A model generated the notes under the pieces. That model saw only the letters and a program-made list of their open reading frames with translations, was not told the origin of the DNA and searched no databases. This document shows positions 12,828 through 59,827 of a stretch of DNA of 59,827 nucleotides, one piece after another. The first letter of the stretch is position 1; each line of letters opens with the position of its first letter. This stretch comes from Spirogloea muscicola (taxonomy: Eukaryota; Streptophyta; Zygnematophyceae; Spirogloeales; Spirogloeaceae): assembly GCA_009602725.1 (NCBI GenBank), contig WELB01000050.1:326955-386781 (forward strand). Reading direction: 5' to 3'. Position numbers and translations under genes: made by a program.

Positions 12828-15621
12828 AATTGTTGGCATCTGCCTGGCGTGCAGCTACATTGACATTCTCGATCAAGTCAGCTGGCCATATCAGCTGCTA
12901 CTTTAAGAGGTGTGCTGTGGTGTGCGCCACGTCGAATGCGTGAGGAGCTGGTTGGATGGACAAGGTCGTGGAGGCGTCGCACCGCAAGCAAGGCCGAAGC
13001 GCTTGCCTTGCAGCTTTGCACTTGTGCCACCACCATCTACTTTTGTACCTCCTCCATTCAAGGATAAAGCATTTAGAATCATGGTCGTTCAGAAGCTTGG
13101 GACAGCCTTTAGCAATGATCTATTACATCTGCCAAACCCAGCTTACACGCGGGTATATTGTCATTATGTCCTACTTCTGTGCCGTTAACACTTTTGGCGA
13201 AGCAACGAATGGGTGTTGATGCGGAAGTGAAGAGGGGTGCGCATGAAATGAAAGGGAGGCTAAAGCAAGCCAAGATACTGTGTAAGAGAAAGAAATAGAA
13301 TTCATCAGGGGCTAAAGTTACAAAACGAAATGTATACTGAAGGGGGACTATAGTACCCCACGAGTGAGCAAATACACATCTGCCAGACTCAACTGGGACG
13401 CCGGAGCACCACCCCGCAAGTCAGTGGCCTGGCCTGGTGCACGCCCAGCACGCTCACGTTGCCAGAGCCTGGGAGAGCTGCAAATGAAGCAAGAGCCGCA
13501 CTCTGCAATCAGCAACCAATGCTTGCAGGACACTGGTATGCCCTGAGCTACCCGCCCACTACGGCGGGGCGTGTCGACCGGGTGGGCCAGGCGATGGAGA
13601 GAAGGCGCGCAGTGCGCAAAATATGAGAGGGAGGCCAAATCAAGCCAGTACACTGATCAGGCAATAGCTAGTGCGGATTTTGGGGCTTCAAAGACGAAGC
13701 CCTATGTTAAGGAGGGCTAAGGTGACAGAGTAATGTAGGCTAAGGGGGACGTCAGTACTCACGAATGAGCACGTACAAACCCGACGATTTAGCGTGGGAA
13801 GCCGGAGCACTGCCACGGAAGCCAGTGGCCTGACTAAAACGAGCCCAGCACGTTGATGATTAATCAGAACTGGGAAGCGCTGCAAAATTTAGCAGAAGCC
13901 AAATTCTGTGACATGCAATTGTTGCCTGCCCAATGCTAGTATGCCCCAAGCTGCCCCCTTAACTGCGAGTGTGAGGACCACTTAGTACAGTAGCCGTCTT
14001 GAATATGCATACGGCATGCATAAAAGTGATCTTTCTGGTGATGGTGTTTGTAGTGCCGCTCCTTTCTTTCCGCGTGTCTGTCGCATGTACTATATTTCAC
14101 TACTTTGGGCTGGTCTCTCACACCCATTGCCTTACATTGGAAGATACGTTTCTTATTATTTCTTCCTTGTCGCCCGGCCAGGCACAGGCGGCGTGGCCCC
14201 CGATTGGAAAGCATCAGTCACGACGTCGAGGAGACAAGCGGCGAGAAACAACAAGCAAGAAGAGAGGAGAAGGCGCGCAGGGCGCATGAATTGAAAGGGA
14301 GGCCAATTCAAGCCAATACATTGTCCAGGCAGATTCGAGTGCAGACTAAACAAGGCTACATAATACGGAGACCTAATCTAAGGTACCTAAGGTGACATTC
14401 GTAGCCACGGGTGAGCACAAACAAATCTGACAAGCTAACTTGGGGAGCTGGAGCGCCGCCACGAAAGCCGGAGGCCTGACTTAGAGCGCGCCCGGCACGT
14501 TGATGAAGAGCCAATGCTTGCGAGCGCTGCAAACTCAGCGAGGGCCGCATTCTATAATATGCAACTAAGGCCTGCGGAATGCTGGAGTGGCCCAAGCTGC
14601 CCCACCGACTTCGACGACGCGCATCAACCAGCCGGGCCAGATGCTGGATCAGGGAGGACCATTTCACGCCGTAGCCTCCGTAGATATCCATGGCACACGG
14701 GTGAAGATGGTCACCTTCGAGGATGGTCATGGTAGTGCCGCTCCTTCTTGCGCTCCGCGCTGGACGTGGCCCAGCCAGACACGGTTGACGTGGGTGCGCC
14801 GCCAGCCTTGTATGCGTCGATCAGTACGAAGAGAGAATGCCCCCAAGGCGCGGATGGTCGAGTCTTGGGAGACGATGGCTTCTCCAACGGGGCCAGAAGG
14901 GGCTGGTGGGTTGGCGCCAAGCCCCTCCCAAACGACGTGAGGTGGTCCTGGTGGCGGGCTCGGCCCGCGGGGGCTGTGCGGCCACGGCGCGGCGTGGCGG
15001 GACGGATCGGGGGGGATCGGACGGCCGAGCGCCCGTGGCCGGGGTCGCGCGGCGCGGTCGGCCATCCGATGGGCGCCCAGGCGAGCCCGCGCCGTCCGAT
15101 GGGGGGGTCCGCTTCGCGAACCTTCCCGCCGCGGAAGACCCCTCCCCGCCGCCCCCCTCCGCGGGTCCCCAAGCCCTCTTCCCATCTGGCAGCTTCTCCA
15201 TCTCCCACTATCGTCGAGGCCTTGTGACCGCCGCTCTAACGACAGGCCGTTCAGTACCCGACACCGTCGCCGCCGCCACCGCCGCCGCCGCCGTCGCCGC
15301 CGCCGCCGTGGTGCCGCGGGACCGCCGGCCGTCTGCGGCGTGGACCCCTTGTCCTGCGGCGCGCGCATTCGCCGCTGCGATTGGGCTGCCCACGGTGGCT
15401 CTCGGCTCTCTCTGAGCCCGGAGATAGGCCTCCGGCAAGTGCGGCCTTCCAATTCGTCGACCTAGCGCTCCCGGCCGCCTGGATCTGCATCGCTCCCACT
15501 CTCCGTGCGCCGCAGCCTTTGCTGAGCTTCCTAAGAAGTGCGGCGGCTTGATCTATTGTCGTACGGACGCGATTCTGCTTCTGGGAGGGGCCGTTTGGAG
15601 CTAGATTGAGAGCTGCCAGCC
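12828..15621. other. Gene-poor region holding the R1 repeat array and the DnaJ promoter
   Basis: After the helicase 3' end, 13.24-14.77 kb is made of diverged copies of repeat R1. From 14.8 to 15.6 kb the sequence is very GC-rich, with a CCG tract at about 15264-15310. The long overlapping frames on both strands there show no family signature and are taken as compositional. No gene is called. Confidence 0.6.
13240..14765. repeat. Tandem, diverged R1 repeat copies (about three units)
   Basis: Three units, beginning near 13240, 13590 and 14270, share blocks in the same order: a GGGAGGCCAA.TCAAGCCA block, about 100 bp of variable sequence, a GGGGAC...AGTACCC.CGAGTGAGCA block, GCCGGAGC.CCGCCACG.AAGCC, GCCCAGCACGTTGATGA and an AATGCTTGC...GCGCTGCAAA block. 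Units 2 and 3 then share AGTGCCGCTCCTT. Fragments also occur at about 2735-2800 and 18925-19030, and inverted at about 30905-30970. No open frame is conserved between copies and no terminal repeats are obvious, so this is probably a non-autonomous element. Confidence 0.75.
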
Positions 15622-17997
15622 ATGTTCGGGCGCATGCCCTCGAAGAAGAGCGACAACACCAGATTTTATGACGTCCTCGGTGTCCCCAAGAATGCCACCA
15701 CCGATGATCTGAAGAAAGCCTACAGAAAGGCTGCCATTAAGAACCATCCAGACAAGGGTGGGGATCCGGAGAAGGTGCATGGCTATCAAATCTCCCAAAT
15801 CTAATGTCTGCACTGGTTGCTACTTTTCAAAGCGGTGGCTTGCGGCAAAGTGGAGTTGCAAGCGACACAGCCTCTCACACCAACGCGAAATGAAGCAAGA
15901 GGTCTATCTCTGGTTACGTGGAAGATGCCATCTGTTGTCTAACTCGCCACTCTGAGCTGCGTCTCTGTCATGAGCAGTTCAAAGAGCTCTCCCAGGCATA
16001 CGAGGTTCTCAGTGACGCTGAGAAGCGTGAGATTTATGACCAGTACGGGGAAGATGCTCTCAAGGAGGGGATGGGAGGTGGTGGTGGCATGCATAATCCT
16101 TTTGACATCTTCGAGTCGTTCTTCGGCTCAGGAGGCGGTGGTCATCCATTTGGTGGTGAGCCATAGCACCTCAATCTGCCATTTTCGTCTTCTAGTAGCT
16201 AGGTCAGTGATCCTATGTGGCAGTTTGGCAATTGCAGTCTATCCGCATTGCCTTCCTCTTGCTCAGCTTATGCATTAGTTGCTGGTGGTCATCACTCAAT
16301 CAATCTTGAGTTTGATGTGTGCAGGCGGGGGTGGCTCAGGTCGGCGCAGGCAGCGGAGAGGAGAGGATGTTGTACATGCGCTCAAAGTCACACTTGAAGA
16401 TCTTTACAATGGAACCTCAAAGAAGCTGTCACTGTCTAGAAACGTCATTTGCACCAAATGCAAAGGGTATGGCTGTGCAGGATCCTGTGCCGCAGCGCAG
16501 ATTTTGTGAAGTTGCAGCAGCTGCATAGTTCCAGTCTTACTGTTGAACGAGCCTCCTACACATTGTGGTACTTGTATGGGTTTAGTCTGGCACATGATGC
16601 ACACCTCATGCAGGCAACCTAAGCTTTATTCTTAGTGCTGGCAACCCAAGCTGTATGATAAGCTTAGCACAAGGGCACACATTCTGGCCTTCATCATTCA
16701 GGCCATGGGTATTGACTGACATCCTTGTTGCAATTTCAGGAAGGGTTCAAAGACTGGTGCTTCAGGCAGATGCGCAGGGTGCCAGGGTTCAGGAATGAAG
16801 GTGTCCATTAGGCAGCTTGGACCCAGCATGATTCAGCAGATGCAGCATGTGTGCCCAGAGTGCAAAGGTTCAGGTAAGTGTTGCAACATGTGACATGTTC
16901 AGCCCACATGTGGACGCAGATGCCAGTCACTTTGGTTTAGGGTCTTGTGCAATTGCTGTTAGATTTTCTCAAGAATTAAGCCAACAAGAACAGGCAAGTG
17001 TAGGCTACCACAGTGTTTGTGTACATCATCGGTGGCAAGCTCACTTGACCTTGAATTTCTGGGTTGGCAGGTGAGACAATAAGCGAGAAGGATAAGTGCA
17101 CAGCGTGCAAGGGGAATAAGGTTGTTCAGGAGAAGAAGCTGCTTGAGGTGCATGTTGAGAAAGGGATGCTTAACGGGCAGAAGATTACCTTCCCAAATGA
17201 GGCAGATGAAGCGGTAATGATCCTGCACCTCAGCTTAATGTGCAAGTGGTCGTGCTAGCAGGACGGATCGCTAGTTGATGTTGCATTACTGCATATAATG
17301 CATGTCATGCCTCCTGACTGATGCTCCTATGTGGCTGTGACTGACTTTGCAGCCCGACACCGTTACTGGAGATATTGTATTCGTACTCCAGCAGAAGGAA
17401 CATCCAATCTTCAAGAGAAAGGCTGATGATCTCTTTGTGGAGCACACACTGAGCCTGACTGAAGCTCTCTGCGGTTTCCACTTCCCTCTGACTCATCTCG
17501 ACAACCGCCAGCTTTTGATAAAGACCAATCCTGGAGAGATTATTAAGCCAGGTCAGTTCATTATTGAAACTGCATGATTAGAGGTGGAGGCATTGATGCT
17601 TGTAACATTCTTGGCAGCTGTTTGGTAACGAGCTTCTGTATTGGCAAAAGCTGACGATCGGATGGTGGATGCAGGCCAATTCAAGGCTATCAATGATGAG
17701 GGCATGCCACAGTATCAGCGACCCTTCATGAAGGGCAGACTTTACATCCACTTCAGCGTGGACTTTCCTGAATCTGGTAGCCTCAGCTTAGAGCAGACAA
17801 AGCTCCTTGAGTCTGTACTTCCTCCCCGGCCTTCCTCAAGCCAGTTGACAGAGATGGAGCTTGATGAGTGCGAGGAGACCACATTGCACGATGTCAACAT
17901 AGAAGAGGAGATGCGGCGGAAGCAGCAGGCTGCCCAGGAGGCTTACGAGGAGGACGAGGAGACAGCAGGGCCTCGAGTACAGTGTGCTCAGCAGTGA
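15622..17997 (+). CDS. Type I (class A) DnaJ co-chaperone with farnesylation motif, ANJ1-like
   Basis: Exons 15622..15774, 15978..16155, 16325..16466, 16740..16873, 17071..17213, 17353..17551 and 17675..17997 encode 423 residues, close to plant ANJ1 (about 420). The J domain spans residues 14-78 with HPD at 42-44. A Gly/Phe-rich stretch follows ([11 protein letters not shown]). The zinc domain has [24 protein letters not shown] and a degenerate fourth repeat CTACKGNK, as in ANJ1. The C-terminal substrate domain includes [13 protein letters not shown] and GEIIKPG. The protein ends CAQQ, a farnesylation CaaX box. It stimulates Hsp70 ATPase and delivers clients in the cytosol or at membranes. 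An upstream in-frame Met at residue 5 (MPSKKSD) could also serve as start. Confidence 0.95.
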
Positions 17998-19481
17998 GTT
18001 GAGTGAAGCCGGGCTGATTTACTGGGGCATAAAAGCTGGGCTGAGCTCCTAGTACTGGATGGTGGTAGTAGCAGCATGCCGCGCTCTTGCGGATGGCAGT
18101 CTCCATGGCAAGCCATTGCTTTTGGCACGGAATAGGGATGCGGGTGCTTCGTGGATGGTTGCATGGCCTTGTGCTGGAGGCTGCTTCCTGTGGCTCGGAG
18201 GGCCGGCGACCTTGCCATGAAGTTTCTCGTTTCTAAGTTCAGAGGTGGCAACAATGCTGGTAGTGACAGATCTCTGAAACTTTGTCACCACCATTGCCAT
18301 ACCATTGTTTGTCGTGGCGCGGCCCATTGGCAAGGGAGATTTTGCCGCGCTGGCTGTAGCTCCCTGCAACATGCTTGTCTGCTGTGTAGGATTTCAATTA
18401 GTCAAATTGGGTACAGCCGTGGACAGATTGACTGAAGGAGACTGCGGTGCTCCTTATTGGTGTCGAGTTTGCCAGATAATGACGATACCCTTGTCATTGC
18501 TGGGGCTGCCCTGCACTGCAGCCCTCTGCAATAGACAATTTCTTCCAAGATTCGATTACTGGCACACAAGCATTTGCTGCATGGGCATGGACATGTGGTT
18601 GAGCACATTGTCAGCAGGAGTTGCTAGAGCTTTACTTTCTGGTCGAGCTGTTTGGTGTTGCTTCTCGCCTTGGCTTGATGGTTGTCTTCTCTGGCTTTTG
18701 GTATAATAGTGTGTCATATAGGTTGATGTTGACAGTGGCCTCAGTAAAGTGCCTCATCATCATGAACCCCCTCTCTTAATTCAGCTGCTTAGCTCAGGAG
18801 AAGGAGTAAGCGATTACAGTCAATCGATGCAGCAGATGAGCTGCTGCATTGAGCACGTTCCAAAATGTTGCTGAAGCTTTGAAAGGTCAGTATTCACACA
18901 ATGTAGTGGGGCATAGACAGAATAGACAGAAATGAGTGGGGACTCTAGTACCCACGACTTAGCGCATATGTATCTGACAGACAATGTGGGGCGCCAATCA
19001 CCACCCCGCAAGCCAAGGAAGCAGCTCTTTCGAAGGAAGAGGCAATGGCTGTTACGATTGTAAGGGCCAAGAAGAAGCTCTTGGCAAGAGGGGCCGATGG
19101 CTGTGAAAGGCAAAGCCCCAAAAGGGTGAAGCTCTTCCGGGGGCGGAGTCGCCCCGTCGATGGCCTGGAGCCGGTCAGGTATGTGGGGCTCTCTGAGCAA
19201 GGTGGTCAGGTGGCCAGAGCGCAGCACTCTCCTGCTCGTCCTGTTGCAGCGTGCTCATGCTTTGCACCAGGAAGCTGGGCGAGCTCTAGTTGGTTGCAGA
19301 AGGGCTTGGAACAGTCGCCAACTGGTATTCAGGCATCAAATAGTGACCTTCATGTGCTGAGCCTGGGTACTGAGCGGGTCAATCTGCAGTGGGTAATGTA
19401 CGTCATTAGATGTGCTCGCCGTTCACTCGGCCAATATGGCCGTCCATCATCTCAGCACATGCAAGTCCTGCTGCTGCAGCC
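17998..19481. other. Intergenic region with an R1 fragment
   Basis: Contains the DnaJ 3' UTR and about 18925-19030, an R1 fragment (GGGGACTCTAGTACCCACGA...). A 133-codon frame at 18305-18706 has no recognisable family and no splice context, and is not called. Confidence 0.5.
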
Positions 19482-19726
19482 ATGGCGGACGGCGCAGCGG
19501 CCCTCCCGGCGGCAGCTGCGGCCGCTGCGCCACGGCCGGAGCCAGAGGGCGAGGGCGGCGGCGGCGGCGGCGGCGGCGCGCTGCGGCTCTTCGTCGGCGG
19601 GGTCCCGCCGGACGTAACGAGCGCGGAGCTGGAGCGGCGTTTTGCCGCCTTCGGCGCGGTGCTCGGTGTCGACGTCATCCCCGCCAAGCGCTCGGCGGCC
19701 GAAGCGCCCGGCGAGGCGCCCTCCGC

Positions 19727-19757
<31 letters not shown>

Positions 19758-22700
19758 GCCGCCGAGTGTTGCGGGTTCGCCTACGTCGAACTCGTGCCGC
19801 AGACCGATGCGACACTGCGCAAGTGCTTCTCGGTGGTAAGTGAGCCGGCGATGTCGCCTTAGAAGGTGGCAATGTGGAGCTTGCCATGGCGATTGGGCCG
19901 CGCCTGACAGCGCCGTGGCAAGGCGCGCAGTACAATGGCTGTCGGTGGCGAGGCGGGCGCCTGCGGGTGGAGGCGGCTCGCGAGCACTTCCACAAGCGCC
20001 TGCAGGCGGAGTGGCGGCAGGCGGCGGAAGCGGCGGCGGCGGCGGCGGCGGCGGCGGAGGCGGGCAAGCATTCCGCCAAGTCCATCCTGCCGCTGGCCAA
20101 CCTGGCGGAGCCCGTCAAGCTGCCATGGCGAGGTTCCAGCAAGGCAAGCGCTGTCAGAGACCCCATAAGGCCCCCTCCCCACCACTTAAGCACACGTTGT
20201 CGATTCCCCGGAGTCCCGCTCCAATCACTCATTTTTTCACTCCCCCAGCTGCGAGCAAGCTATGCAGGCAGCGTTGGCACCGCTCACGAGGCAGATGTTC
20301 TCAGGGCCCTCAGGGTCGCGAGGCAGATGCCTCAGAAGAGGGTTTGGAGGCTCAGTGTCGAGGCCAACGAATGGCATTCTTGCACAGCTTGAGAATCACT
20401 GCAGACCTGATTAAGTGTAGGGATTTAGAGACACTGATCCTGAGTATACAGGCTCAAGGCCAGCGTTCTCAGGAATTAGATGCAGTTGGGTCCTTTGTCC
20501 ACAGACTCGAGAGCATCAAGGTCCCCAACGCCAGTGGTGCGGCCACACTTAAGGACACATGCTTAAACATGACAAGTCTGAGCTGCGCAGGCGCTGCTCT
20601 CGCCTGGCAGCCTGACAAGCTCAATCAGCCAGCCCTTTGCTAACAGTCCCACGAGCAAGCTATAGTTGACGCCCCGCTGAGCTCCTCCATTCCTTCTGTG
20701 CCCGTGTGCTCCCTGTAGGCCAAATCAATCCCGCTCACAGGCCTGGGGAAGCACAAGCGGAGCTTCCAGAACATTGATGTGCCACCGCTGCGTCAGACGC
20801 TCGAGGAAGCCTGCCGGGTGGCGGGCGCAGCAACAGCCAGAGACCAGCGGCCCTGGCCCCAAGTCATGGGCATCGGCCTGCCTGAGGCCACAGGCGCTCC
20901 AAATCCACCTCGGATGGCTACAAACTCCCAGCCATTGGAGGGGCTTTCTTCAGCTAGGAGCGTGGAAGCCAACGTGGTCACGCTTGCCAACCGCGGAGCT
21001 GCATCACTTCCACCCAAGTCCATGAAGCCGGAGAGGAGGATAGCGGCGGCAGGCCAAGCGTCTGGGCTGGGACAGGGTGCAGCAGATTTGGTCAATGATG
21101 GACACCTTGAGGTGGCGCCAAATACCGAGCGGCAGCCTATGCTGGAGCCTGCAGAAGGTGGTCAGTTGGGCACATCGATGAGACGCATGCAAGTGCTTCA
21201 TGTGCTTGATGATTGGAGGTAGTTGCACCTGCCTATCATTGGTACATGGACCTCTGACGTTCATGTAGCTATGGCAACAGTGTTAGAATGTGGTTCCAGC
21301 TTGCGGATTTTGACCAGGCTGGTGACGGTGCTGAAGCAGATGGGCTTCCCGCTGCTTTGTCGCTGTCGGAGGATGATGTGGACCAGGGACTCATCGAGGA
21401 GCGGCAGCGGCTCCTCAAAGTCCTGACAGCCATGTTCCCTGAGGATGGCAGGTCTGAGTCACTCGTCATCTTCCAGCAGGGGAATGTTGTAATCAACTTT
21501 TGTGTGCTGGGTGCTGAGCCTCCAAGCAGCTTCTTTGTGTGACAGCTCTGGTGAGCAAGCAACAGGTGCGCAAGCGGCAGCAGCCCCACTGAAAGCGTTC
21601 TCGGCAACTCTCCGCTATGATCCTACTCAAGGTGCCCCCTTGGATGTCCATTATTGTCATGCTGCGTAACCCTCATCTTGTGCATGCGCTGGGCAGCACA
21701 GAGTAAGAGTACAAAGTTCACAAAATGAGATGATGGCCATGGCAGGGAGTCTGGATCAGCGCAAGTCTGTGCTCCATGAAGGCAAGCTTTTGCCGTTGGC
21801 TGAGACCCTGCACAGTGCGGACATGGCTGAAGGAGGACACGAACCCACCAAGGGAAGTAAGAAGGATGACGGTCAAGACCTGCAATTAGAAAAAGAGATT
21901 GGGGATCCTTGGGAGAGACTCTTTGCCAAGGCAGCTCTGCGTCCAGGTCCAGTGAGCGGCAGTGGCTACAAAAAAGACAGTATCGAGCGAGGTTGGTCAC
22001 AAGCTGCAACTGGTGGTACCAGCTCTGAAGAAGCTGCTGAAGGAAGTGATGAAGTAGCACGGGCTGTTGATCATGGTGAGTCTGAAGCCCACACAACAGT
22101 GAGGGCGAAAGGAGGGCAAGCAGTGCGTGGCATCAGTTCGTTGCAGAGCACGGAAGATGCAGCTGTGGAGTTGGAGCTGAGGGGTCCTGCAGAAACCCAA
22201 ACAGCGGCACAACTTGACCAAGCCTCTCATAAGCAGACTATAGAGTTACTTACTACTCACCAGCAGCAGCTGAATGAAAATGAGAACCTAGTCAAGGGCA
22301 ATGGGGTTCCTGAAGGACTGGCCTCGTCGGTCAAGCGCAAGAAGGTCAAGAAGAAGGACAGGCCTTCTGCAGTGACACAAGCTGAGACTGCGAATGCCAG
22401 CAACGAAGCCATGGAATTGTCAGAACCATCTGTCACTCTGTTGGCGGAGAGCAAGGACTCTGATAAGCTATCCGCACCGAAAGATGGGCAAGAGAAGTGG
22501 TACCAGAGGGCAACTTGGACGTCACTTGTGGATCATGATGGCACTGCTTCATTCTCGCTGACATCTGTGCTTCCTATTTCGGCGTCGGCAAACGCTGGTG
22601 CCGCTACAGGGGCAGTAAATGGTGCCAAAGAGGGCAAGATACGCAGTGCCATCATTGCCACACGACAATCATCTATGGAGGCCACGTTGTGTGAAGCTGA

Positions 22701-23052: not shown

Positions 23053-24530
23053 TGGTCATTGGTGCACATTCAAGGCATTGTTGAGTGGCAGGGTATCTAT
23101 TATGATAAGGAGGACATAAGTTGCTCCATTGCTCTGGCAATAGTTGTACACTGTCTACTACGGCTCTGTTCTTGATTGTTTCAGCACTATTTGATCTAGG
23201 AAAAGGGTGTACACTGCAGGCATGTAGAGCACTTACATCACTTGTGGGTGGGAGTGGGTCTGCCGTCAGCTTAAAGCTGGTCAGCAATCTTCAAAACATT
23301 CACAGTAGGCCTCCTGGCACTCCATAGCTATAGCTTGATGCTAAGCAGGCTTGAGATGCTATTGCTGTGCATATGTACTATGCAATCTAAGTGGCTGAAG
23401 TGGAAGATCCTCTTCCTACTTTCAACATCAATTCAACCTCCTCTTCAAAGAACATCTCCAGTGGAAGGGAGCAGCTTTGTAGTCATGTGCTTGCTGTCCA
23501 TTCAGCAAGGTCATATGCTACGTGTGTATGAAGTTGTCCATCTAGCTGTTTAAAGATTACGCATGGTTGCCTGCCATGAATCTGCATTTCATGTGTTGGG
23601 AACAGGGCTGCAACCTGACAGTACTTTGTACAGTTGGTCACTTGACCAACTGCTTGGAACGATCTTGCCCGCAAACTTGTTGTGCAATGCTCGTTTGACG
23701 ACTTTGGTGCCAGACAATGAACTTCCTTGCCAGAGTAAGCAAAGGACACGCCGTTGTTGGCCCCATGGATATGACAGCCTCTCGAGGCAGACACGGATGA
23801 CCGGCTGCAGAAGGCATGGGGACCTTTGGCCTACTGTTCACGGTCCTTAGTAGGGTTGATCGGGGGGTTACCACCCCGTCACCGCCGCCAGCAACCAGCT
23901 AATGCTCAAGCCAGCTGCTCAGCAAGGCTGTCCTCAGTACTGGACCACATACGGAAACCTGGCCTACAACTTGCAGTTTGGCCGCAGATTGGTTGCACTG
24001 CTCGTCTCAGACAGCTGCATGCCTTTTACCAAGCATCCAGAGCGACTTAAGGCAGCCTTAGCAGGTTATTACCTGGCGAGCTCTGCCACCAGCTACGACT
24101 GCTGGTGGCAGAGCTCGCCAGGTAATAACCTGCTCGGACACCCTTGTCAAGCGCATAAGGTGCAAGTTCGTTAGGCAACCTCATTGCCCAAAAGGACAAC
24201 AACCTGGACCATTGGCACACTGCACTGCCTTTCACTGGAGACTTGCCATTGCAGTTCTCATTCTAATTGCAGTTCTCCATCCTAGCCTATGGGGAGCCCA
24301 GCCCAAACGAATGGCCAACAACGACGAGAAGGGATGCAACCACATGACCAGACATTGGAGAGTTCAAAGAGCACCAACGCTGACAAGGCGTCTATGATTG
24401 TCAGATGTTCCCAAGTCAGACTCCCTCTTGTAGCTGAGTACACTCTCACAGAAAACTTTGAACGTTGCCTATAACAGCCCTGCTTAATAATTACTGCAGG
24501 CATGTTCAAACAGTCAAGGACACAAACATG
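23053..24530. other. Intergenic region between convergent NOL8-like and IspG genes
   Basis: Holds both 3' UTRs and the hairpin at 24060-24134. A short palindrome (CAGTTGGTCA / TGACCAACTG) sits near 23632-23653. No coding signature was recognised on either strand. Confidence 0.5.
24060..24134. repeat. Perfect inverted repeat, 34-bp arms, 7-nt loop
   Basis: 24060-24093 (starting AGCAGGTTATTACCTGG) is exactly complementary to 24101-24134 around a seven-base loop at 24094-24100. The transcript of either strand would form a long uninterrupted stem. It lies between two convergent 3' ends. It could be a small foldback element, a miRNA-type precursor, or a termination/processing structure. Confidence 0.9.
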
Positions 24531-33319: not shown

Positions 33320-35761
33320 ATGATGCACAAGCTCAAAGACAAGGTGCTCAACGGCCTCTCGCCGTCGCACCGCGCCGCCGCCGCCGACGGCGAGCCGGAC
33401 ACGGCCAACGGCGACGGCAGCCCCGCGGCTGCAGGTGCAACTGCAGCAAACCTCCATTGATCTTACTGCATCCTCAGCCAGTCATGGTATTACCCGCACT
33501 GCACCACCATCAGGGCTCAGTGACGGCCATACAACGGCGCTGCTTGCCGCAAGCTCCGTCTCCACATTGTGCGGCTTCCCATTTGCTGGCGATTGACACG
33601 CGGCGCCTCAGCACCTCAAGCTGAGGGCGCTGGTGCTGCGGCAGACGACGAGGCTGACGGCAGCGCTGAGGCGGCGTGCTCTGATGAAGCCCGCGCTCTC
33701 GCGGAGCTCCGGCAGGCTGTTGGAGCTGACGGCGTCGACACTAGCGTGAGTGGCCGCTGGTCACACCCTCAAGCTCTGCCCTCACCTTGGGAGCAACCTA
33801 CTGCTGTGACTTCAGCAATTGTGCTGGGTAGCCACTTGGTACTGGCATTACTCCATAGGCGGCACCGACACTTGGGGCACAGAGCATCACTGTGGACGCC
33901 CCATATCTGTGTTACTTGGTTCACTTCTTAGCCCATTAAAAGCACGTCTTCTGATTGCCACTGGGGTGCCACTATGCAGGGCGTCGACGATGCCACGCTC
34001 AATCGCTTCCTCCGGGCGCGGGGCATGCGCGTGCACAAGGCAGCCAAGCTCTACGTCGGCCACGTGAGGTGGCGCAAGGAGTACTTGCCCCAAGGCCGCG
34101 TCCTGCAGTCGGAGATCGCCAACGAGCTTGCTGCTGACAAGTGCTTCCTGCAGGTCTCGTCATAGAGCCGGCCTGGGTCACCCTGCTGCTACCTGCTCGT
34201 CGCAATTGCCAGCAAGTTCTTCTCGGGCAGCGCGCTCACTGCAGTTGCAAGGCACCTTTGCCTGCACATGCCAAGCTTGAGTGCCTGCCAAATGTATCTC
34301 AATGCTGGCTGTGGCTTCTGCAAGGATCAATCAGTCAAGCAGATGCCCTGATCTGACATGCAGAGGTGGGAGCTGCTTGCATGCTGATTTGCTTCATTGG
34401 TCAGTGCTTGATTTACCACTTGCCTGGATCAGGGGCACGACAAGGCGGGGAGGCCCATCATTGTCGTGCATGGGTGCAAGCACGATGCTGCCGGCCGAAA
34501 TCTCGACGAGTTCAAGCGTACGGGCCACGACTGGCTGTTCCCACTACCTGGTCATGGGGTTATTTGAGCAGTAGTTGCTGATTGCTTGTCATTTGCCACT
34601 TCTGTTTTCACTGCCGGGTCTGATCAGACCATTGCTGTGGACAACGTTGCAGGATACTGTGTCTTCAACGTCGACCAGGCTGTAAATAAGTAGGTGTTGG
34701 ACGCCTTCCCTAGGGGTCTTGCAAAGCTCCTTGTGTGCATCATAATCAGCATTCCTGCTCTGTGTCGCCACTGACAGGCTTGCACTTCTCTGTGCGTACA
34801 TTATATTGCGGACGCTCTCCAGTAGCTAAGTGTGGCTTGCACCTTCGCCAAACACCTCTGATTCCATGCATATTGGGATTATTACTTTTGTTGCAGTATG
34901 CAGGATGGCATAGAGACATTCTGCGCAATCTTGGACCTGCAAAATGTGGGCTACAAGAATCTGGACTCTAAGGCCCTCATTGCCATCTTCGATTTTCTCC
35001 AGGTTATTGAAGCAAACTCATGAACCTTACTGCCTTCCTGCTTACTGTGACAAAGTTGCTACACAGGCCTGCATGCATTTGCAGATGAATAGTGTTCCTT
35101 GTTTAAAATTCAGCATGTAATCGTCTCCCTGACGTGCACGCGAGCATGGCGAGCAGGCACAGTACCCCGAGAGGCTTGGCAGGCTCTTCATGATCCACGT
35201 ACCAACTATTTTCTGGGGCATTTGGAAAATGGTCTCACCCTTTGTTGACAAAGCCACTCGGCAGAAGGCAAGCCAACTTTTCTCGATGCTTGCCAACAAA
35301 TTGCATGCCCCCTACTGAGCCAAGCGGAGGGGCCAAGGCAGTTGGCAGTGCTGGTCTGCCCCAGCATCTCTTTGTCTTCACACATTTTGTGCAGGACCTT
35401 AAAGCTGAAAGACTTATTTGTACCTAAGATGCGACTCCGTGTGCTTCTTCTGGTGAGGCAGATCCTCTTTGTGGAGGACAAGCGCCTGATGGAAGCGCTG
35501 CTGGAGGAGATTGACCTTGACCAGCTGCCCAAAGATTACGGCGGCAAGCTGGACCTGGTTCCCATCCAGCTGGCTGCTAGAAGTGGGGCGCCGGCTGGTG
35601 CCGCAGCTACTGCACCAGCCCGACCTGCTGCAACCGCTCCAGTCCCGCCTGCCGCAGTGATGCCATTCCAGCAACCTGGTGCCGGGCTGCCATTGCAGCA
35701 GGGTTCGCAGGCTGCTGTGCAGGTGCCAGCATCTGCACAACCATTCATGGTTGATTCTTAA
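33320..35761 (+). CDS. SEC14-like (CRAL-TRIO) lipid-transfer protein
   Basis: Exons 33320..33434, 33612..33745, 33980..34153, 34433..34517, 34653..34689, 34897..35002, 35157..35267 and 35462..35761 encode 353 residues. Residues about 84-141 are the CRAL-TRIO N segment (ATLNRFLRARGMRVHKAAKL). The lipid-binding lobe follows: GHDKAGRPIIVVHG, FKRYCVFNVDQAV, FCAILDLQNVGYKNLDSKAL and YPERLGRLFMIHVPTIFWGIW, then ILFVEDKRLMEALLEEID. The C-terminal 60 residues are Ala/Pro/Gln-rich. Such proteins move or present phosphatidylinositol and phosphatidylcholine at membranes. Intron 7 appears to be GC-AG (AAG|GCAAGC at 35268), a known minor class. ATG at 33320 is followed by a second ATG. Confidence 0.93.
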
Positions 35762-36869
35762 TGTAACGTCCAAAACTTGCAGGTAGCTGCCATGCAGCGC
35801 AACTTATGATATCCTCAGTCTGTACATGCTGCAATTGCCATCTTGGCAGTTTCAGCAAGCACATTCGTATGTTTGCTGCATCAAGATCAGGGATCCTGAG
35901 AACGCCAAATTGCCAAGCACTCTGTGCACCCCAGGCAGGCACAGCCTTGCATGGTGCATAGACCAGCATTCTTTATCAAGAACCATTGGATACTTACAGA
36001 TAAAGCAAGGAACACCCACATCACAGAAAGTAAAATCCTTCTTCCTGTCTGATGTCACTACTTCGCTTACAGTCCTCTCACTGCTTGAGAGTCTCGTATA
36101 CCAGCACACTGCTGGAGTTGTGAGTAAGCCCTTCTAGTAGTAGTCAAGCATTCTTGGGTCTGAGGAGACCGCGCTGCTCCGGTGCGCACCCCAGCCATGG
36201 CTGTTACCACACCGCAGGTCTGAGTGGAGCCTGTGCTAGTCTGACCTCTGTCTGCCGCCACAAGCGGATCTGCATCTGTACTATCAAGACGAGGACAGTC
36301 TGCTGATCCTGCAAATGCCCAGCTTTAGGATACAGTGGAGAAAGCAAGAAGCTACTACTATGTAACTGTCAACAGGAGCAACATCAGGAGTTACCAACTC
36401 CCGAAGATATCCATAGATAATCCTCAGCGAGAGCGAATCAAACACTTACCAACCACGTGCCCTAGCCTGAAAAGCCTATACCTCAACAATTTGGGAGCTT
36501 GTTGGTGGATAAATCTCACAATTTCTTGATGCAAGACATACATGGCATTTCCATAAAATGCCTCGACCTCGTTATCTGTGTCCCTCTAAAGTAGCCGCAT
36601 CTTCTAGAACAGAGAATGACTGATGCGAGCCACAATGTCTGCAACGTTGTCAGCTGTGTACTTCAATTTCAGAGCTACTGGTTGCATTCTGGTCGTAGGT
36701 GGTCATCGCATGAGGTCCAGGTCACCCGAAGCACTGCACATGCCATATGTGAAATTTGTAGAGATAATGTAGCCAGGCTCCCTTACTGACTGTACTAGGC
36801 CCAGCAAAGGCGCAGCGAAGAAGTTGAGCGGGAGCAAGCAGCGCGGGATTTTTGGACCCCTGGTTTGTA
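35762..36869. other. Intergenic region after the SEC14-like gene
   Basis: Lower GC than the genes. No coding signature, RNA gene or repeat was recognised before the foldback begins near 36870. Confidence 0.5.
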
Positions 36870-37795
36870 CTCACTTTCGTTCTTGATTGTTTCCGAGTAC
36901 ATCTCTCTTTGCTGTCAAGTGCCATTATCTTTGTCCATTATCAGTCCAACTCTTTGATTCTTCTTTGACATGGCTTCTTCCAGCGGCACTAATACTACTA
37001 ACATGACTGAGGATTTCGAAGTAGACAGGTTATGCCCACAAGCGCTACACGATCACTGCTCCAGCGGCACTAATTCAGATTCACTGGCGAGAATTTTCTT
37101 GAAAAATGGAAGATGACAATGCACCTTCAGGACAGGAATCTTTATGGCCGTTGTTAATGATTCAAATCCCGAACCATTTGAGTATCATCCTACATACAAT
37201 ATCTGGTCAAGATAAATTCTGAAAGGTAATGTCAACGATATTGTGTGAATATTAATGACAATCTAACTAATTCCTAGCCGTAGTCTTCCCGAAGCAAAGC
37301 AAATTTGGGATAGTCTATCATGATAGAAAGTGCGAAAAATCTATTTTTCATCATAGACTATCCCAGATTTGCTTTGCTTTGGGACCTATGTATATGACTC
37401 AGTTGATTGTTATCTACATTCACAGAAATTGTTGACATTTCCTTTTGACCAGATATTGTATCTAGGATGGCTTTCTGATGGTTCGTGATCTGAACCGTCA
37501 ACAATGCCACAAGATTCCTGTCCTGAAGGTGCATTGTCATCTTCCATTTCCAGGATAAATTTCTCGCCAGTGAAATTTAAATCAGCGCCGCTGGAGAAGT
37601 GAAGTCCTATAGCGCTTGTGGGCCCATAACCTGTCTAGATTCGATATTCTCAGACATGTTGGTAGTGTTAGTGCCGCCGGAAGAAGCCATGTGAAAATTG
37701 AATCAAACAGTTGAATAACAATCGATGGACAAAGATGATAGCTCTTGACAGCAAAGAGAGATGTAATCGGGAACAATCAAGAACGAAAGTGAGAA
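36870..37795. mobile_element. Large imperfect foldback (about 460-bp arms) derived from copia-like gag sequence
   Basis: The arms, about 36870-37325 and 37340-37795, are inverted copies centred near 37332. Shared blocks, in mirrored order, include TCACTTTCGTTCTTGATTGT, TCTCTCTTTGCTGTCAAG, ATGGCTTCTTCC.GCGGCACTAA, GACAGGTTATG, CACAAGCGCTA, TCCAGCGGC.CTAA/GAT, GACAATGCACCTTCAGGACA and, next to the centre, GATAGTCTATCAT. Both arms contain broken frames resembling the N-terminus of a Ty1/copia gag (an ATG with SSGTNTTNM, then WKWKMTMHLQDRNL in the right arm). Stops and indels differ between arms, so neither copy is functional. A head-to-head double insertion or a retroelement-derived hairpin locus are the alternatives. 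Confidence 0.8.
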
Positions 37796-38002: not shown

Positions 38003-41000
38003 CTGAAGATGATGTACCGGTCCTCAGGAAAGATGACAATTGAGTAGTCATTCTCGCCCCCACACATGTACCCATGTTCAGCCCCCATCCAAGAGACCTG
38101 CGAGAGCAGACAGCTGACCAATTGATGGCCATGACGCAAAGTGACGCACATCTCTCCTCATTTACTGACACACTGTCATGTCGAACTAAAAGACCTCAGT
38201 GCCTCTGACGTGGGTTGCTGACAAGATGCTGTAGAACGAGTAGGCAATGAGCAGCTCATTATCATCTTGTTGTGACTCACAGGAGAGTCTGCAAAACCCC
38301 AAACTGTGATAGCAGCCCAGGGCACCGATCCCTGCTTCACTAATAACCTGACCAAAAAATGATTCCAATGTCATACTGCAAAAATTACTTTTGTCACCAA
38401 CCTCCGTGAAATCTGTATATTGATATCTACTTGCAGCTTGTGAGTCAGCAGGTCCTCATTAGCTGCACTTACCTTGCATGACATATCACCTTCATCACCT
38501 GCCCATTGCCACATATAAAACGTTGCAAATAAGCTGACCTGCCAAATCTGCTGGAGATTGCGTAAGACAGACTTCCATGGAATCTCAGGCAGCGGACTGT
38601 AAGCGAGTAAGTGGCATCAGACAGTTGCAAGCATCAATGTGATGTGCACCTGCCCTGACGCGATGGGGCCGTCCCATCGGACGACCTCGGCATCCCCCTC
38701 CGTCGCTTCTCCTCGCCAGGGTGCTGACCACTCATATCCTAGAGGTTCTTGCCTGGCACAGCAGTAAGATCTGAGATGACCACTGACACATCAACCTCAG
38801 CAAACCCCAACTTAAAGGTAACTCAACGCTGACCAGGTACAAGTTGCCATACGGAGTCCAACCTGCTGAGCATGCAAGCCCAAGTGGGGTGCAGCAGTCT
38901 GAGCTAAGACTAGCTAAAGTAGCATCCTCACTAACGGCTGCATTGAGAGAAGCTTGCTGCAGAAGGGCCGCAGCACCGACCCGAGGATACGACACGCGGC
39001 AGCACCGAGCCACTCGAAGAGGGCAGACAGGAACTCAGCATCCAGCGGGCAAGCCCCCCGATCCCAGCCTCGTGGGCCAACGGCGTCCTCGGCGGCTGCT
39101 CCATCCCTGTCTTCGGCTGCGGCTGGAACTGCCAGATTGCCAGCACCGACTGGAGGGAGCGGGACCTGCTGCAGCAGCTCTCGCGAGCACGTCACCTCAG
39201 CTCGAACGGCATTTGCTGCCTCTGAGAACTCCACAGCAGTGGATCCACCATCTGAAGAGTATGACTCACGATGACGGCCGTCAGACAGTTAGCAGGCAAT
39301 CATTGCAGTGTTTCTTATGGACAAGCTCAGCACAGAATTACACACTATTTCATTCCCTGCTTAACACCAGAGCCCACCAGAGAAGAAGGTGCACAGGAAG
39401 CTCAGGGGTCCAGTCCGCTCCTTCAGGCACTCATGCACCTGCAGGTAATGCACTACACCTCTCACAACACTTCACGGAGATCGCAGAAAGGAGGCCTGCA
39501 ACAGCACATCTGAGCTTGAGAAGCTTACGCGGTTGTACAGCTTCCTGCCTGGCACGAACGAAGAGGCTGCGGTGTCTATGCAGATGTCTGTCCAGAGGCG
39601 TCAAGAGATCTTCAACGCCCTTGTTGCCATTGCATGAATGACGTCTACTATCATCGTTCTGAAACTTGACTAGTATCATACTTCAGTGGGTCCACACAGG
39701 ATACTATACCTCTGGCCTGGGTCGAGCTCCGAGGATTTCCCTGCCTCACAAGTGCAGCATGTAGACAGCGATAAAATTATCATTACTTGTTGTCATTAGC
39801 AAAAACCGACAATTCGCCTTGTGGCTTTGTAAGCAAGTCACAAGACAGGCTCGCTCATGAAAGAGCCATGATATACAATTGAGCACTCTCTTTCGTGTCA
39901 AAGTGGTGTACTTCATACATACTTTCATACTTTAGCGCGCCCACTCCAGTAAATGATATATCACTACAACAAATATCACTACAAGGTGACCACCAAGAGA
40001 AACTGCACAATACGCACCTGTCAGGCCAAGCTGCTGGTATGTGTCCCTGGTTACTGCTAAGTGCACCTTCCCTGATCATTTTGAAACTTACATTCAGATC
40101 AATAAGAGCTGTTTCCCCCTTGAACCTGCTTGCTTGTTGGACTGGAAAGGCTATGCAGCCACTCGAGTCCTGCTAATTGTCAGAAGCGCTAGGGCCTGCT
40201 AGAGCGAGCTGGAACCCCCCCCGTGGAACACTCAGCGAGATCTCTCAGAGCTAGAGAAGACTGTGATAGCTATGCATGGTACCATCAGGCGTGATAGCCA
40301 CGGCGTCCGTTCCGTCGATTGCGGTCGCGCTTGAGATCGCAACGAATTCTCCTGCACATCATACAGCAGAGCTAAGGACCTCCAAATGGATGCCGGCATG
40401 AATTTAGCAGCTTGGCGCACACCATGCCAATTGATTTTCGATTTGTGACCGAGCTTTGCAATAGCGCTGCTTAGTGGTCGGCAAAAGCGTTAGCGCAGGC
40501 CATCAAGACTAGCGCATCCTGGATGTACGCCCACACCTGGCGGCTTGAAGTACTTGGCACGGAAGTCGTCCACGAGAAGAGCCCCTAACGGAGCCCGCAC
40601 TCTGTAGTAGAAGCATTCGGGTTGGAGAAGCGGAGCGAGCATGCCCTCCACGTCCTGCAGAAAACAAGTTGATAAGATACAGACTTAACATTCTGTTATT
40701 CAGATCTAAAGACTGGGGAACAGGAGGGCTGCGTGACTATCGGGTAGCACGTGTGCCAAGCCAAACCTCCTACTCGTTTCACAAGCATATCTTAAATGGC
40801 AGCTTTGTCGGCTTGAACACGAGTTAAGCAAAAGTAATGAGTTAATGAGAAGCTAAACTGAACCCTTCCCAGCCAAAAACCAGTCGAAGTCTTCATCTCT
40901 AGTTACCCACAATTGAATATTGGCAATGTAAGATCGGAAAGTCAAGACATAAAGGGATGACTGTGAAATTCATGAGACATGTAAGAAATCCACTCTCTCT

Positions 41001-41802: not shown

Positions 41803-41824
41803 GACCGCCGCCGCCGCCGCCGCC

Positions 41825-42199
41825 NNNNNNNNNNNNNNNNNNNNNNNNNNNNNNNNNNNNNNNNNNNNNNNNNNNNNNNNNNNNNNNNNNNNNNNNNNNN
41901 NNNNNNNNNNNNNNNNNNNNNNNNNNNNNNNNNNNNNNNNNNNNNNNNNNNNNNNNNNNNNNNNNNNNNNNNNNNNNNNNNNNNNNNNNNNNNNNNNNNN
42001 NNNNNNNNNNNNNNNNNNNNNNNNNNNNNNNNNNNNNNNNNNNNNNNNNNNNNNNNNNNNNNNNNNNNNNNNNNNNNNNNNNNNNNNNNNNNNNNNNNNN
42101 NNNNNNNNNNNNNNNNNNNNNNNNNNNNNNNNNNNNNNNNNNNNNNNNNNNNNNNNNNNNNNNNNNNNNNNNNNNNNNNNNNNNNNNNNNNNNNNNNNN
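41825..42199. other. Assembly gap (375 n) in a bidirectional promoter region
   Basis: The gap is flanked on both sides by GCC/CCG triplets. The Rpp40-like ATG lies at 41802 on the minus strand, and the first RCC1 exon enters from the gap on the plus strand, so both promoters and the RCC1 start codon are hidden here. Confidence 0.95.
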
Positions 42200-45100
42200 G
42201 CCGCCGCCGCCGCCAGGCTCGCGCGTCGCGGCGGGCCTCCCACCCGCTGTGCCTCGGGCACGAGAGCTTCCGGCCAGGACGCGCTCTCGGCTCGCGGCTC
42301 GCGTCCGGCAGCTCGCGGCGGCGCTCTCGCTCGGGCCTTCCTGTGAGTCCGCGTCCTCCGTCTGAGCGAGCTTGCGGCGGCGTCGCCGCAGGGGCGCCGG
42401 CGAAGATGGCCAGCTCGGCCTGGGCGACCGTGGCGACGCGGCGTCGCCGCGCCCGGTCCCGGCCCTGGACGCCGTGGACGTCGTCGGCCTGGCCGCCGGC
42501 AGCCGGAACTCCCTCGCCATCTCCTCCGACGGCCGCGTGAGTGGCCAGGCAGCGGCCGGACGGCTGAGCAGCAGCGCGCAGCTCACGAGAGGCGGGTTTG
42601 TCACTGGTGTTACTGTTACTGTTACTGTTACTGTTACTGTTACTGTTACTGTTACTGTTACTGTTACTGCTACTGTTACTGCTACTGCTACTGCTACTGT
42701 GACTGTTTCTGTCACTGTCATTGTCACTGCAGCTGGCCTACTTGAATATGGGATAACTTTGCAGGCCGGCAGCTCAGAGACCGGTGCCACTTTTACAGGT
42801 GTTCGTGTGGGGCTGGAACCAGCGCGGCACTCTCGGGCACCCCCCCGACACCGCGGCGGCGGTCGAGAGCACTCCCAGCCAGGTGAGGAGCCCCGGCGAG
42901 GCCTCCCAGTACGTTGCTGCTGCTGTTATAAAGGTGGAGGTTCCAATCTTAGCTGCCACGGCAGGTTGCTGGAGCTGATGTGAGATGGCTGGCAATGCTG
43001 CCCTGCTGGAGGTGATGGTAGCTTCCAGTACTCTGATTATAAGAGTGTGTAGCAATTGTGTGGCACAGGTGCAGTCCCTGGCAGAGGTTCGCATCGTCCA
43101 AGTGAGTGCGTCGCGAGCTGCTTGTCCATCACCAGGCCGCGTGGCTCTGTGTGCACTGTGTACTCCTCTTTCTACCTTGACAGTGTCATCAATTTACATG
43201 ATAGACGAACATTGACAGCAAGGGCACTTGTGATTGGTGTCAAGGATGCTGTAGTTGGTCCTACTAATCCAGCCAGGCGCAAGCAGGACGCATTCAGCAT
43301 CATGGAGGCTGTAGTCATGCCTGACTCTGGCAGGTGCATACTGGGTCACACTGAACACTGGTATGAGCATGCGTACAGGCTGCTATTGGAGGCTGGCATT
43401 GCCTGGCAGTAGATGATGGCGGCAGGGCCTATGCTTGGGGTAAGCACTCCTATGCTGTCATTGCCACACAAACCGACGATCTGTTATGCAATTGGTGGTA
43501 GAGAGCCAACTGAGGGCAGTGCTAAGCTCAAAGCACTATGCAAGCATAGTGCTTTGCGCAAACATCTCTTCACCAGATTCACATAGTCCACATAGCGTAG
43601 ACCATTATTTTATTTAGTCTGTGCAAGTGTTACTCTTCCTTGTGGAGTCATTCTTGCTGATGTAATGGGTACAGGTGGTAATGAGTACGGCCAGTGCGGT
43701 GTGAGATTCGAGAAACGCCAGACAGGCGAGATGACCTGCCGCGACATACCAACGCCGCGACCCTGCGCGCCTCATCTCCACGTGAAGCAGGTCAACAAAA
43801 TAGGCCATTCACTTCTTACAGGCTGTCTTTGTGCCCACGTGACAAGGCTTGGGGACATCCAATCTTGCTTTTCCCTTGAGCTGCTAGACATGATCATGTG
43901 GAATTTCTGCCAAACTTACAATCAAAATTGAAGCACTTTGCCAGGTAGCAGCTGGGGGCACGCATTCTGTGGTCCTCACCCAGGATGGTGAGGTGTGGAC
44001 CTGGGGGCAGCCCTGGCCTCCAGGCGACACGTTAGCTGCTTTACCTCCTGCCTGCCATTCACAAGCTCGTGAGAAGCCCTCTAGTCGGCTGCTGTCCTTG
44101 CACCAGGATGTGTGTAGCATCTTATCGCTCGATCTAAAGCTCAATCTTAGATCAGCCTTGACCATCATGTCCTTCTGTGACATAGTGGGTCTGAGCTTGT
44201 GTTGCTTGGCAGGAAGCAGATATGGAACCCAGTTAAGGTGGCGGGGCTGCCCAAGGTCCGCCAGGTCGCTGTGGGGGCCTTCCACAACCTCGTGCTGACA
44301 GAGTCTGGTCAAGTCTGGGCCTGGGGCAACAATGAGTACGGGCAGCTCGGCACCGGCGACACGCAGCCGCGCTCGCAGCCGCTGGAGGTTGCTGAGCTTG
44401 CGCAGCTCAACATTGTGAGCACTCAGAACATTCACGACACTGCGCGATTGCGACAGTCAAACACGCGACGAACTTGCGCCATTACTGGGTAATGCATCCT
44501 GGTAGTCAGAGCACGTAAGTGATTGTTATTGGTGGATGAAATGCGCATGCTGCGCGGCAAGTTGAGGACGTTGTTACTGTGTATACTCAATGTGCCACTG
44601 AGTGATCAGGTTGACTTGTCTGCGGGGGGGTGGCATTCAGTAGCCATTTCAAGCTGCGGCAAGGTATTATCTAATTACCTTGCTTGCGATTTGCGAAAGT
44701 CGTGCACCACCATACAAGGATGTTGGCTCTTTTTGTGATAATTTCCTTTGCAGGCTAGCAAATTCTCAGAGTCGATTATGCAACCCAAGTAAGGCCTGCC
44801 TTGTGCTCTGCAGCTCCATGCGGGGCTGTACGAATTGCCAAAATTGCAGTGCAGGATACAGGATAACAACACATATCAGAGTGTGTGTGTGCTAAAGAGT
44901 TACTGGCTAAGGCTGACAATGTGAATACATTCACCATGGGATATACAGATGTATGCATGGGGAAGAGGCGAGCACGGGCGACTGGGGTTTGGCGACAAAG
45001 ACAAAGGCAGCAAAATGCGGCCCACATTGGTTGAGCTCCTGTCGCATGAGAAGATCATACAGGTACCAGACGGCAGCTGTCTCACTAGGCACTTGGCTTT

Positions 45101-46043: not shown

Positions 46044-48143
46044 GAGGAGTCAGAAGGCAACAGCATCAGACCTTGAGAGGGCAGCAACATCGTGGAATCC
46101 TGTGCCCTTTGTGTCCGTTTGCTGTGTGCTGTTGGAGTGAAGTCGAGAAACCCAGTGGGGTGCTACTACTTGTACTTTTCACGCCGTGTACATTTGTGTA
46201 TTCATTTGTATTCTGAGTGCATTATTGAGTAATTTAAGGTTGCCTGGCCTACTAATCTCCTCAGTGCAGTAAGTCAAGGCTGCCCATAAAAGAGGTCAGC
46301 ACACAAGCCCCAATGCCCCTCGAGGCCTCGACTTCACTGGGATTGAAAACTTTCGCCGGCATTAGCGCTGGCATCTGGAAGTGCTCTTGCTGGTGTTTAA
46401 TCTCGGCAGTGCAGGGGCTAGAGGAGATTGTTGTATTGCACATACAACCCGCCGCACATGGGCCAGAGAGCAACCTGGAAATTTGATTCAAGAATGTATG
46501 TCAATGTGAATCAGGACAGCCTTGTGGCTGCTAGTCTACATGATTTGAAGCTGCTAAGTAGGAGCTATTGAGCGACCACCATCGTGATGCTTGCATAGCA
46601 AGTATCTCCATAGCTGTGTAAGTTGAGCAATTTCCGGCCCCTTCAGACCTTGTCCATCCTTTTAGGGCTGGCTTCTCACAGCCCTCGGCCTCTTTGGAAG
46701 AGCCATCGCCGCCTGAAATGAACCTCTTCAACAGAAGGAAAAGCTCTTCCAAAGTACGGCAATATAGCTGTGAGAGGCCAGCCCAAATGGAACGAAGGAA
46801 TGAAGGAGTTAACAAGGTCCGAAGTGAGCCGAAAGCACAAGCGACTTGAAGAGCAAGTGGCATAGATTGGTTGCTCGGTAAGCCCTTGTCAGGAGCCGAA
46901 AGTCGGATTGAGTAGAAGCACGGGAAGGACTTGGTACACAGAAAGTTAAAGGCGGCAGCCAAGGCACGTCCTGCCAACAGAAACACTGCGAATGCCTGGG
47001 AGCGCGGCTCGCCCAGCAGCCGGGGTTCAGGTCCTTAGGCGGCCCAGCAGCTTGTAGTCTTTTCTTCCTTACTTTAGAGCTAGCACCTCGGGCCCCTTCG
47101 TCCAAAAGGCATGGACTGTAGTGTAGTTCTTTTTCGGCACCTCTTTCTTTGGCTTGGGATATTGTCCATTCATTTTGGGCTGGCTTTGCCAGCCACTCTT
47201 CTCTATGGGCGAGCACTTCGCTTCGCGCAGTTTAGCCCCTTTGAACCTTGTCAGTCCTTTCTGGGCTGGCTTCTTACAGCCCTTGCCCCCATTGGAAGAG
47301 CCACTTCTCTCCTTATTAGGCTTGGGAGACTCGTGATGGGGGCCTTGTTAGCTACGTGATCTTGAGGAAATCCTTCAAGGCATCCTTTAGTGGCATCGTT
47401 CAACGCCAAACCTCAAGGCGGAAACCCCCTTGAGCCCGGCTGTTGAGGAAATGGAACAGACGGGCTTAGCGCTTCGTCTGTTGGCGCCAAATTCCAGCGA
47501 GGCCGAGGTCCTCACGACCAGCGCCGCGCGCGGCGGCGGCGGCGGCGGCAGCGGCGGCGGCGGCGGCGATGGCGATGAACGTGGAGAGAGCAAGGCGGCT
47601 GGGAAAGGCTTGGAAGCAGGTGGTTGGGCCGTTGACGGCGGCGTTAGCGGGAAGATAGCGCGGGGCCGGAAAGGCAGGCGGAGCGCGTGGGACCCCGACG
47701 AGCCTCTCCATCGGTCGACTCGTTCCGATCCGTCTGTGGTTGCTGCCCGCTTGCAAGCGGCTTGCAAGCGGCCGCGCGTTCTCGCTAAATGCCCATGCCC
47801 GTGGGGCAGGCTCACGGTAACCCGGCCGCACCGCGGACGGGCAATCTGAGCCGCTCGCCCTCGCATATCGACGGCTCATGATCAAAGTAGTCACGTGGCT
47901 CTGCCTGACGTGAGCCGCCGATAGCATCACATCCACGGCTACAGCACCGAGGACCTTTTTGCGCTTCCTCTGGCTTCCTCTGGCCCCCTTCTCGTTCTTT
48001 GTTCATTCTTTTTTGGGCTGGCTTGTCCAGCCCCTATCCTCAATGGGCGAGCCCTTTCTTTTTTGGATGGGACGGGCCGCCATTGACTCGAAACTTCCAG
48101 CGCGTCAGCTGGACGACCAACGACCCGTCTCTCCTTCGCTAAC
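46044..48143. other. Intergenic region with R2 repeat cluster 2
   Basis: Contains R2 copies (listed separately) and a GC-rich segment at 47430-47850 with a GGC/GGT tract at about 47531-47570. The 139-codon frame there (47430-47849) is glycine-rich low complexity, with no family match, and is not called. Confidence 0.5.
46635..48060. repeat. R2 repeat cluster 2
   Basis: Copies at about 46635-46700, inverted 46735-46830, 47088-47210, 47225-47310 and 48000-48060, with the same GGGCTGGCTTNTNACAGCCC core and CCATTGGAAGAGCCACTTCTC follow-on as cluster 1. The last copy ends about 85 bp before the n at 48149. Confidence 0.8.

Positions 48144-59704: not shown

Positions 59705-59827
<123 letters not shown>

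Follow-up and report, generated by a model that had tools for sequence, protein, structure and literature searches.

Foldback and MITE elements have an inverted-repeat shape, and the known inverted repeats derived from transposable elements, the Mu killer locus of maize included, are to our knowledge single cases. According to one study, Mu killer is a partial inverted duplication of mudrA that dominantly silences a living target, a hairpin RNA having been proposed as the agent; the same study describes two short antisense transcripts in silencing plants and read-through sense transcripts in non-silencing plants, and questions the locus's own mechanism (PMC3440606). Small RNAs have been reported from endogenous inverted-repeat loci of Drosophila cells (PMC5392987). 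In the alga considered here, Spirogloea muscicola, the genome is triplicated and has three DCL2/3/4 copies, three AGO1/5/10 genes and an AGO2/3/7 clade, and NRPD1/E1 (Pol IV/V) were not found in streptophyte algal genomes, according to PMC7994812. The three Dicer-dimer loci and the Piwi exons that we located at four places in the genome agree with this DCL/AGO set. Our search of the literature for small-RNA sequencing in the Zygnematophyceae returned only a review.

Here we describe a foldback in a 59,827-nucleotide stretch of contig WELB01000050.1 (hereafter C50; the whole stretch is called the window). A first-pass annotation of the sequence had proposed two inverted arms of ~460 bp with a short centre near position 37332, and comparison of the window with itself bore this out: positions 36870–37793 aligned with their own reverse complement as a single inverted diagonal (self-BLAST; 960 columns, 79.2% identity) that continued across an axis at ~37332 (Table 1). 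A local inverted-repeat finder resolved the arms into ungapped pieces of 18–74 nt, including a perfect 39-nt piece, with the innermost arms 10 nt apart. The suggestion that a transcript could form a long double-stranded RNA (dsRNA) was in keeping with the predicted fold, at −570 kcal/mol compared with a shuffle mean of −234 ± 7.6 kcal/mol (0 of 20 shuffles as low), in which 804 of 946 bases were paired and perfect helices measured 39 (the longest uninterrupted helix), 31, 27, 23 and 22 bp. This was by far the strongest palindrome of the window (others were found at 46640–46806, 68%, and 24049–24145, 97 nt, 82%), and Rfam, at gathering scores, gave no match in the whole window. Elsewhere, the window contains a high-copy repeat at 14257–14827 (at least 34 matches at 95–96% over ~560 nt among the best 37 of 5,721 candidates), apparently a recently active element; a dispersed short repeat at ~36147–36392 (more than 30 other matches among those listed, 70–92% identity); a run of N at ~41822–42200 (masked or an assembly gap), which gives X in translations; and 123 uninterrupted A at its end (59705–59827).

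Table 1. Features of the foldback and its surroundings, in window coordinates.
Feature	Position	Strand	Remarks
SEC14-like (CRAL-TRIO) gene, 3' end	35249..35758	+	PF00650, E 0.024, under Pfam's cut-off; weak
Short stretch from the 5' region of the element, inverted with respect to left arm	36797..36856	-	75% to C89 (E 2.8e-9), 82% to C99 (L042, E 4.6e-12)
Left arm: copia 5' leader, ATG at ~36972, gag N-terminal region	36870..37332	+ (sense)	Frames broken
Palindrome centre	37331..37356		C73 homeolog carries ~600 extra palindromic bases here; C50 and C113 are without them
Right arm: second copy of the left-arm region, ATG complement at ~37690	37333..37795	- (sense)	Frames broken
Rpp40-like gene, last recognisable exons (frames 38004-38157, 38176-38370)	38004..38370	-	PF08584, E 6.4e-6 and 1e-5

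The sequence of the arms points to a retrotransposon. Each consists of a leader of ~100 nt followed by an ATG and frame-broken gag N-terminal sequence, and although six short frames of the window gave no Pfam match, a homologous relative with an open frame, on contig C89, matched Retrotran_gag_2 (PF14223, E 1.8e-8). The C89 palindrome also joins gag to what appear to be the first residues of RVT_2 (a weak Pfam match, E 0.045; tblastn, 46% over 52 aa to a copia element on C115). The homeologous copy on contig C73 is a longer palindrome (1,530 nt, 79%), the inner part of which, read by eye, contains CFYCKEKGHLIGDC and SWYMDTGATTH, motifs that we take to be a CCHC zinc knuckle and a DTGA-type protease start of copia type; this stretch is missing from the window copy. 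On the strength of the gag of the C89 relative and the zinc knuckle and protease motif of the C73 homeolog, features shared with Ty1/copia LTR retrotransposons, the arms are best read as derived from the 5' end of a Ty1/copia element, as the first-pass annotation had it in placing degenerate copia gag in both. Unlike such elements, the window copy is truncated, frame-broken and palindromic, and no LTR, PBS, integrase or reverse transcriptase was recognised at the locus. Element-derived sequence extends on the left beyond the arm start at 36870, to ~36797, through a 60-nt inverted piece that adjoins the arm and forms a second inversion junction at ~36853–36857; its equivalent on C73 reached a raw score of 30, whereas none of 200 shuffles scored above 17.

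The foldback had been described as sitting alone in a gene-free stretch between SEC14-like and Rpp40-like genes. The flanking genes stood, the SEC14-like one on a weak match, and the isolation did not: the foldback is a member of a genome-wide family (see below) and a recognisable Rpp40 exon (38004–38157, minus strand) lies only ~210 bp beyond its right end, so that the foldback may lie in the last intron or the 3' region of that gene. Human RNase P p40 (residues 320–349 of 363) also matches the Rpp40-like exons, though weakly (E 0.0097). In favour of a last-intron position, a GT donor follows the exon at 38004 in all three homeologs (see below), and ~36700–36800 is nearly or wholly free of indels and has a common stop; against it, changes in that interval, judged by eye, were not enriched at third codon positions, and the supposed acceptor region is partly element sequence. 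Rpp40-like transcripts might run through the foldback.

The palindrome occupies the same place in three homeologous contigs, C50, C73 and C113. The window was collinear with C113 from ~26 kb and with C73 from ~29 kb, in both cases to 47 kb (the extent compared), with main blocks 82–87% identical and a break in collinearity at ~31–33 kb. Both flanks of the foldback matched full-length at only two other places in the genome, those on C73 and C113, with shorter repeat matches elsewhere; further to the left, window positions 15140–20000 continue on C73 at 90%, whereas parts of 3–8 kb match C118 and C376 instead. Palindromic chimeric reads occur in long-read data, and a single read folded back on itself could give such a structure by faulty assembly; the ~20% difference between the arms and a structure common to three divergent homeologs leave an artefact of this kind with a vanishingly small chance.

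To place the window copy among its relatives, we searched the genome at the DNA level with the palindrome and obtained at least 46 matches, at 20 loci. Most (14 of the 20: the window trio and 11 of the 17 others) were palindromic at the gag match; four more (L032, L034, L035 and L040) had a palindrome elsewhere in the 10 kb compared, and two (L036 and L038) had none at all. The six loci non-palindromic at gag form ~5 sets, those on C12 and C95 being homeologs, and an extra copy found by a search with the leader (L042, on C99) had no inverted repeat in the 1.2 kb examined. By all-against-all comparison, which also identified C154 as a homeolog of C23 and C34, the 14 palindromic copies fell into ~8 independent sets (C50/C113/C73; C113:38k/C73:212k; C23/C34/C154; C89/C4; C257; C243; C6; C131). 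The 3' side of gag is at the axis in four of these sets (the C50 trio, C89/C4, C257 and C243) and the 5' side in the other four, with differing axis positions; because palindromes made from the same gag differ in axis and orientation, palindrome formation appears to have recurred, rather than one palindrome having spread. Ten open reading frames of related loci were compared with Pfam, nine of them without a family. The tenth, a 225-aa open frame near another gag palindrome (L014, C73:208000–217999, at 1182–1856, minus strand), matched the Totivirus coat protein (PF05518, E 5e-21) and is likely, by this match, an endogenous dsRNA-virus coat gene. A 2.3-kb palindrome on C95 (L032, 5790–8111, 76%), homeologous to the C12 region, contains two open reading frames without a Pfam match.

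The abundance of palindromic copies might also reflect a mobile foldback element that spread as a palindrome, and the copies on C89 (L028, 3646–5292) and C4 (L029, 4640–6286) share 1,647 nt at 99.76%, axis included, with little similarity outside. Either a palindrome fragment was recently transferred, or the near-identity stems from a mistake in the assembly. Like foldback and MITE elements, the family has an inverted-repeat shape; it differs from them in the axes and orientations that vary among its copies and in its coding retroelement content. No target-site duplication was seen by eye at the ends inspected in five copies (C50, C73, C113, C89 and C4). As the C50, C113 and C73 copies are, moreover, explained by the triplicated region, we regard spread as a ready-made palindrome as improbable.

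How such palindromes could form is suggested by copia sequence elsewhere in the genome. Among the 155 RVT_2 matches listed, read by eye, near-duplicates no more than 1.5 kb apart comprised 12 pairs in inverted order (from 9 loci) and 2 in direct order (from one locus), an excess that persisted within 3 kb (15 versus 4 pairs) and 6 kb (16 versus 4; two-sided sign test on the 1.5-kb loci, by hand, P ~0.02). A degenerate copia pol on C137 (L040, 1468–5473) contains three tail-to-tail inverted duplications; the element picks up again beyond the first and second of these, and its pieces alternate in orientation (sense 975–1034, inverted 1035–994, sense 1174–1274, inverted 1262–1127, sense 1298–1373), the pattern expected of switch-and-resume copying. 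TE-rich DNA often contains nested insertions, and inverted arms could in principle be left if the same element had inserted twice independently, the two copies facing one another, and the remainder had been lost. The inverted alignment, however, crosses the axis in 14 of 14 palindromic copies, and inverted RVT_2 near-duplicates outnumber direct ones, which makes paired insertions a very improbable origin. Serial strand switching would fit the RVT_2 bias, the C137 pol and the left-end junction of the window foldback better than paired insertions. Literature searches returned nothing on retrotransposon palindromes formed via snapback reverse transcription, and only a fly inversion study on inverted duplication of LTR retrotransposons by template switching.

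Five observations stand, namely the palindrome, its copia origin, its shared position in three homeologs, its recurrence with different axes and the lack of excess pairing described below. The foldback is probably what is left of the 5' portion of a Ty1/copia element, which strand switching turned into a palindrome before the triplication and which is now decaying. The growing strand would have changed template and doubled back along the sequence it had just copied, so that hardly any spacer separates the arms. This could have taken place while the element was being reverse-transcribed or while its DNA was under repair or replication, alternatives that our comparisons cannot tell apart. We infer this strand switch and its timing relative to insertion; the window locus yielded neither a target-site duplication nor a pair of LTRs nor an empty site, so the insertion event was not reconstructed. 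At this site the event would have occurred shortly before the genome triplication, after which the three homeologous copies would have lost sequence and mutated independently.

To assess whether the pairing of the arms has been kept, we compared arms within and between homeologs; if selection or gene conversion had kept it, identity between the two arms of a locus should exceed that between arms of different homeologs. In the window trio, within-locus identity was 80.8% and cross-locus identity 79.9%, a difference of 0.9 with a 95% bootstrap interval (−0.1 to 2.0) that barely touches zero and leans slightly to pairing; the same arm compared between homeologs gave 81.9%. Sites splitting the six arms two versus four (n = 24) grouped the same arm in 12 cases, the same locus in 4 and others in 8 (possible pairs 6, 3 and 6, respectively), and the six-arm tree was almost star-like, with weak support (57–66). 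Results were similar for the C23/C34/C154 triplet (73.9% within and 73.6% across loci, interval −1.7 to 2.6; 80.8% for the same arm) and for the C113:38k/C73:212k pair (82.0 and 78.9% within loci, 78.0 and 81.8% across them), such that within-locus identity approximated cross-locus identity in two triplets and one pair, and selection on pairing found no support. Nor was the window-trio palindrome conserved in excess of its surroundings: identity between homeologs was 78–86% for the arms, 81–84% for the left flank and 87–88% for the right flank with exons. This near-equality of within-locus and cross-locus identity suggests that the window palindrome arose not long before the homeologs diverged and then decayed without visible constraint on pairing. 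Neutral-looking divergence of this sort may nonetheless be compatible with a past role.

These comparisons bear on whether the foldback works today as a hairpin-siRNA locus, with dsRNA from its own or Rpp40 read-through transcription diced by DCL2/3/4 and silencing copia relatives. If a transcript of either kind crossed the foldback, a long imperfect hairpin would result, which could, on the predicted fold, be cut by a DCL2/3/4-type Dicer, with no sign that this step is maintained. The hairpin would be large and very stable, with perfect helices of up to 39 bp, DCL and AGO loci are present, a conserved gene adjoins and, between C23 and C34, the bins covering the palindrome reached 92 and 94% identity, towards the top of the 69–95% range at that locus. 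The layout is also like that of Mu killer (PMC3440606), the closest analogue in anatomy: both are partial inverted duplications of a TE coding region in which one end of the element supplies the two outer ends, and both lie beside a transcribed gene. Mu killer derives, however, from a DNA transposon and silences a living target, whereas the foldback is a copia relic with arms ~79% matched, common to three homeologs and with no close living target found. The Drosophila-cell loci, from which small RNAs are reported, similarly have a long inverted repeat capable of folding into dsRNA (PMC5392987).

The hairpin had been proposed to be complementary to a related active element, and here the genome offered little. 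A protein search with the C89 gag gave 22 matches, with only two open reading frames longer than 1,000 aa (C115, 1,431 aa; C37, 1,281 aa), both 29% identical, and this genome-wide search, which took in gag-similar elements only, found no intact copia with a close gag. Only 2 of the 906 21-mers of the foldback were within two mismatches of the C115 copia (the one compared). Near-exact 21-mers are shared with other dead relics, for example L013, where 62 of the 906 matched one strand and 57 the other at that limit. An active copia target is thus unsupported by the whole-genome gag search and the 21-mer comparison with one long-ORF copia. With no close intact target, no clear within-locus pairing excess in two triplets and a further pair, and a window-trio palindrome conserved no better than its surroundings, present-day silencing by this locus is unlikely.

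The same absence of an intact close relative, alongside 14 of 20 related loci palindromic at gag and a window palindrome that predates the homeolog split, would be expected if the foldbacks were an extinct silencing memory, in which dsRNA from young, near-perfect palindromes shut the copia family down and left palindromic or broken relics behind. Since NRPD1/E1 were not found in streptophyte algal genomes (PMC7994812), hairpins could have been a simple dsRNA source. Families die for other reasons, however, and palindromes could be mere by-products, and we give this reading a small chance, much like that of a working locus. A bolder form, in which an alga with DCL2/3/4 Dicers and Argonautes, and apparently no Pol IV/V, kept palindromic copias as heritable dsRNA memories that silenced the family to extinction before the triplication, is less likely still. 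Were a memory reading true, only folded-back, broken relics of the copia family would survive today.

Together, these results suggest that the apparently recurrent palindrome formation in copia relics is more interesting than the single locus. Small RNAs, if found, would bear on TE silencing in the algal class that is sister to land plants and whose studied genomes did not yield Pol IV/V (PMC7994812). The triplicated genome provides natural replicates for testing selection on hairpin pairing, and the sets tested are not visibly selected. With ~8 independent palindromes from one copia family, the origin of palindromes from retrotransposons may be studied as a population.
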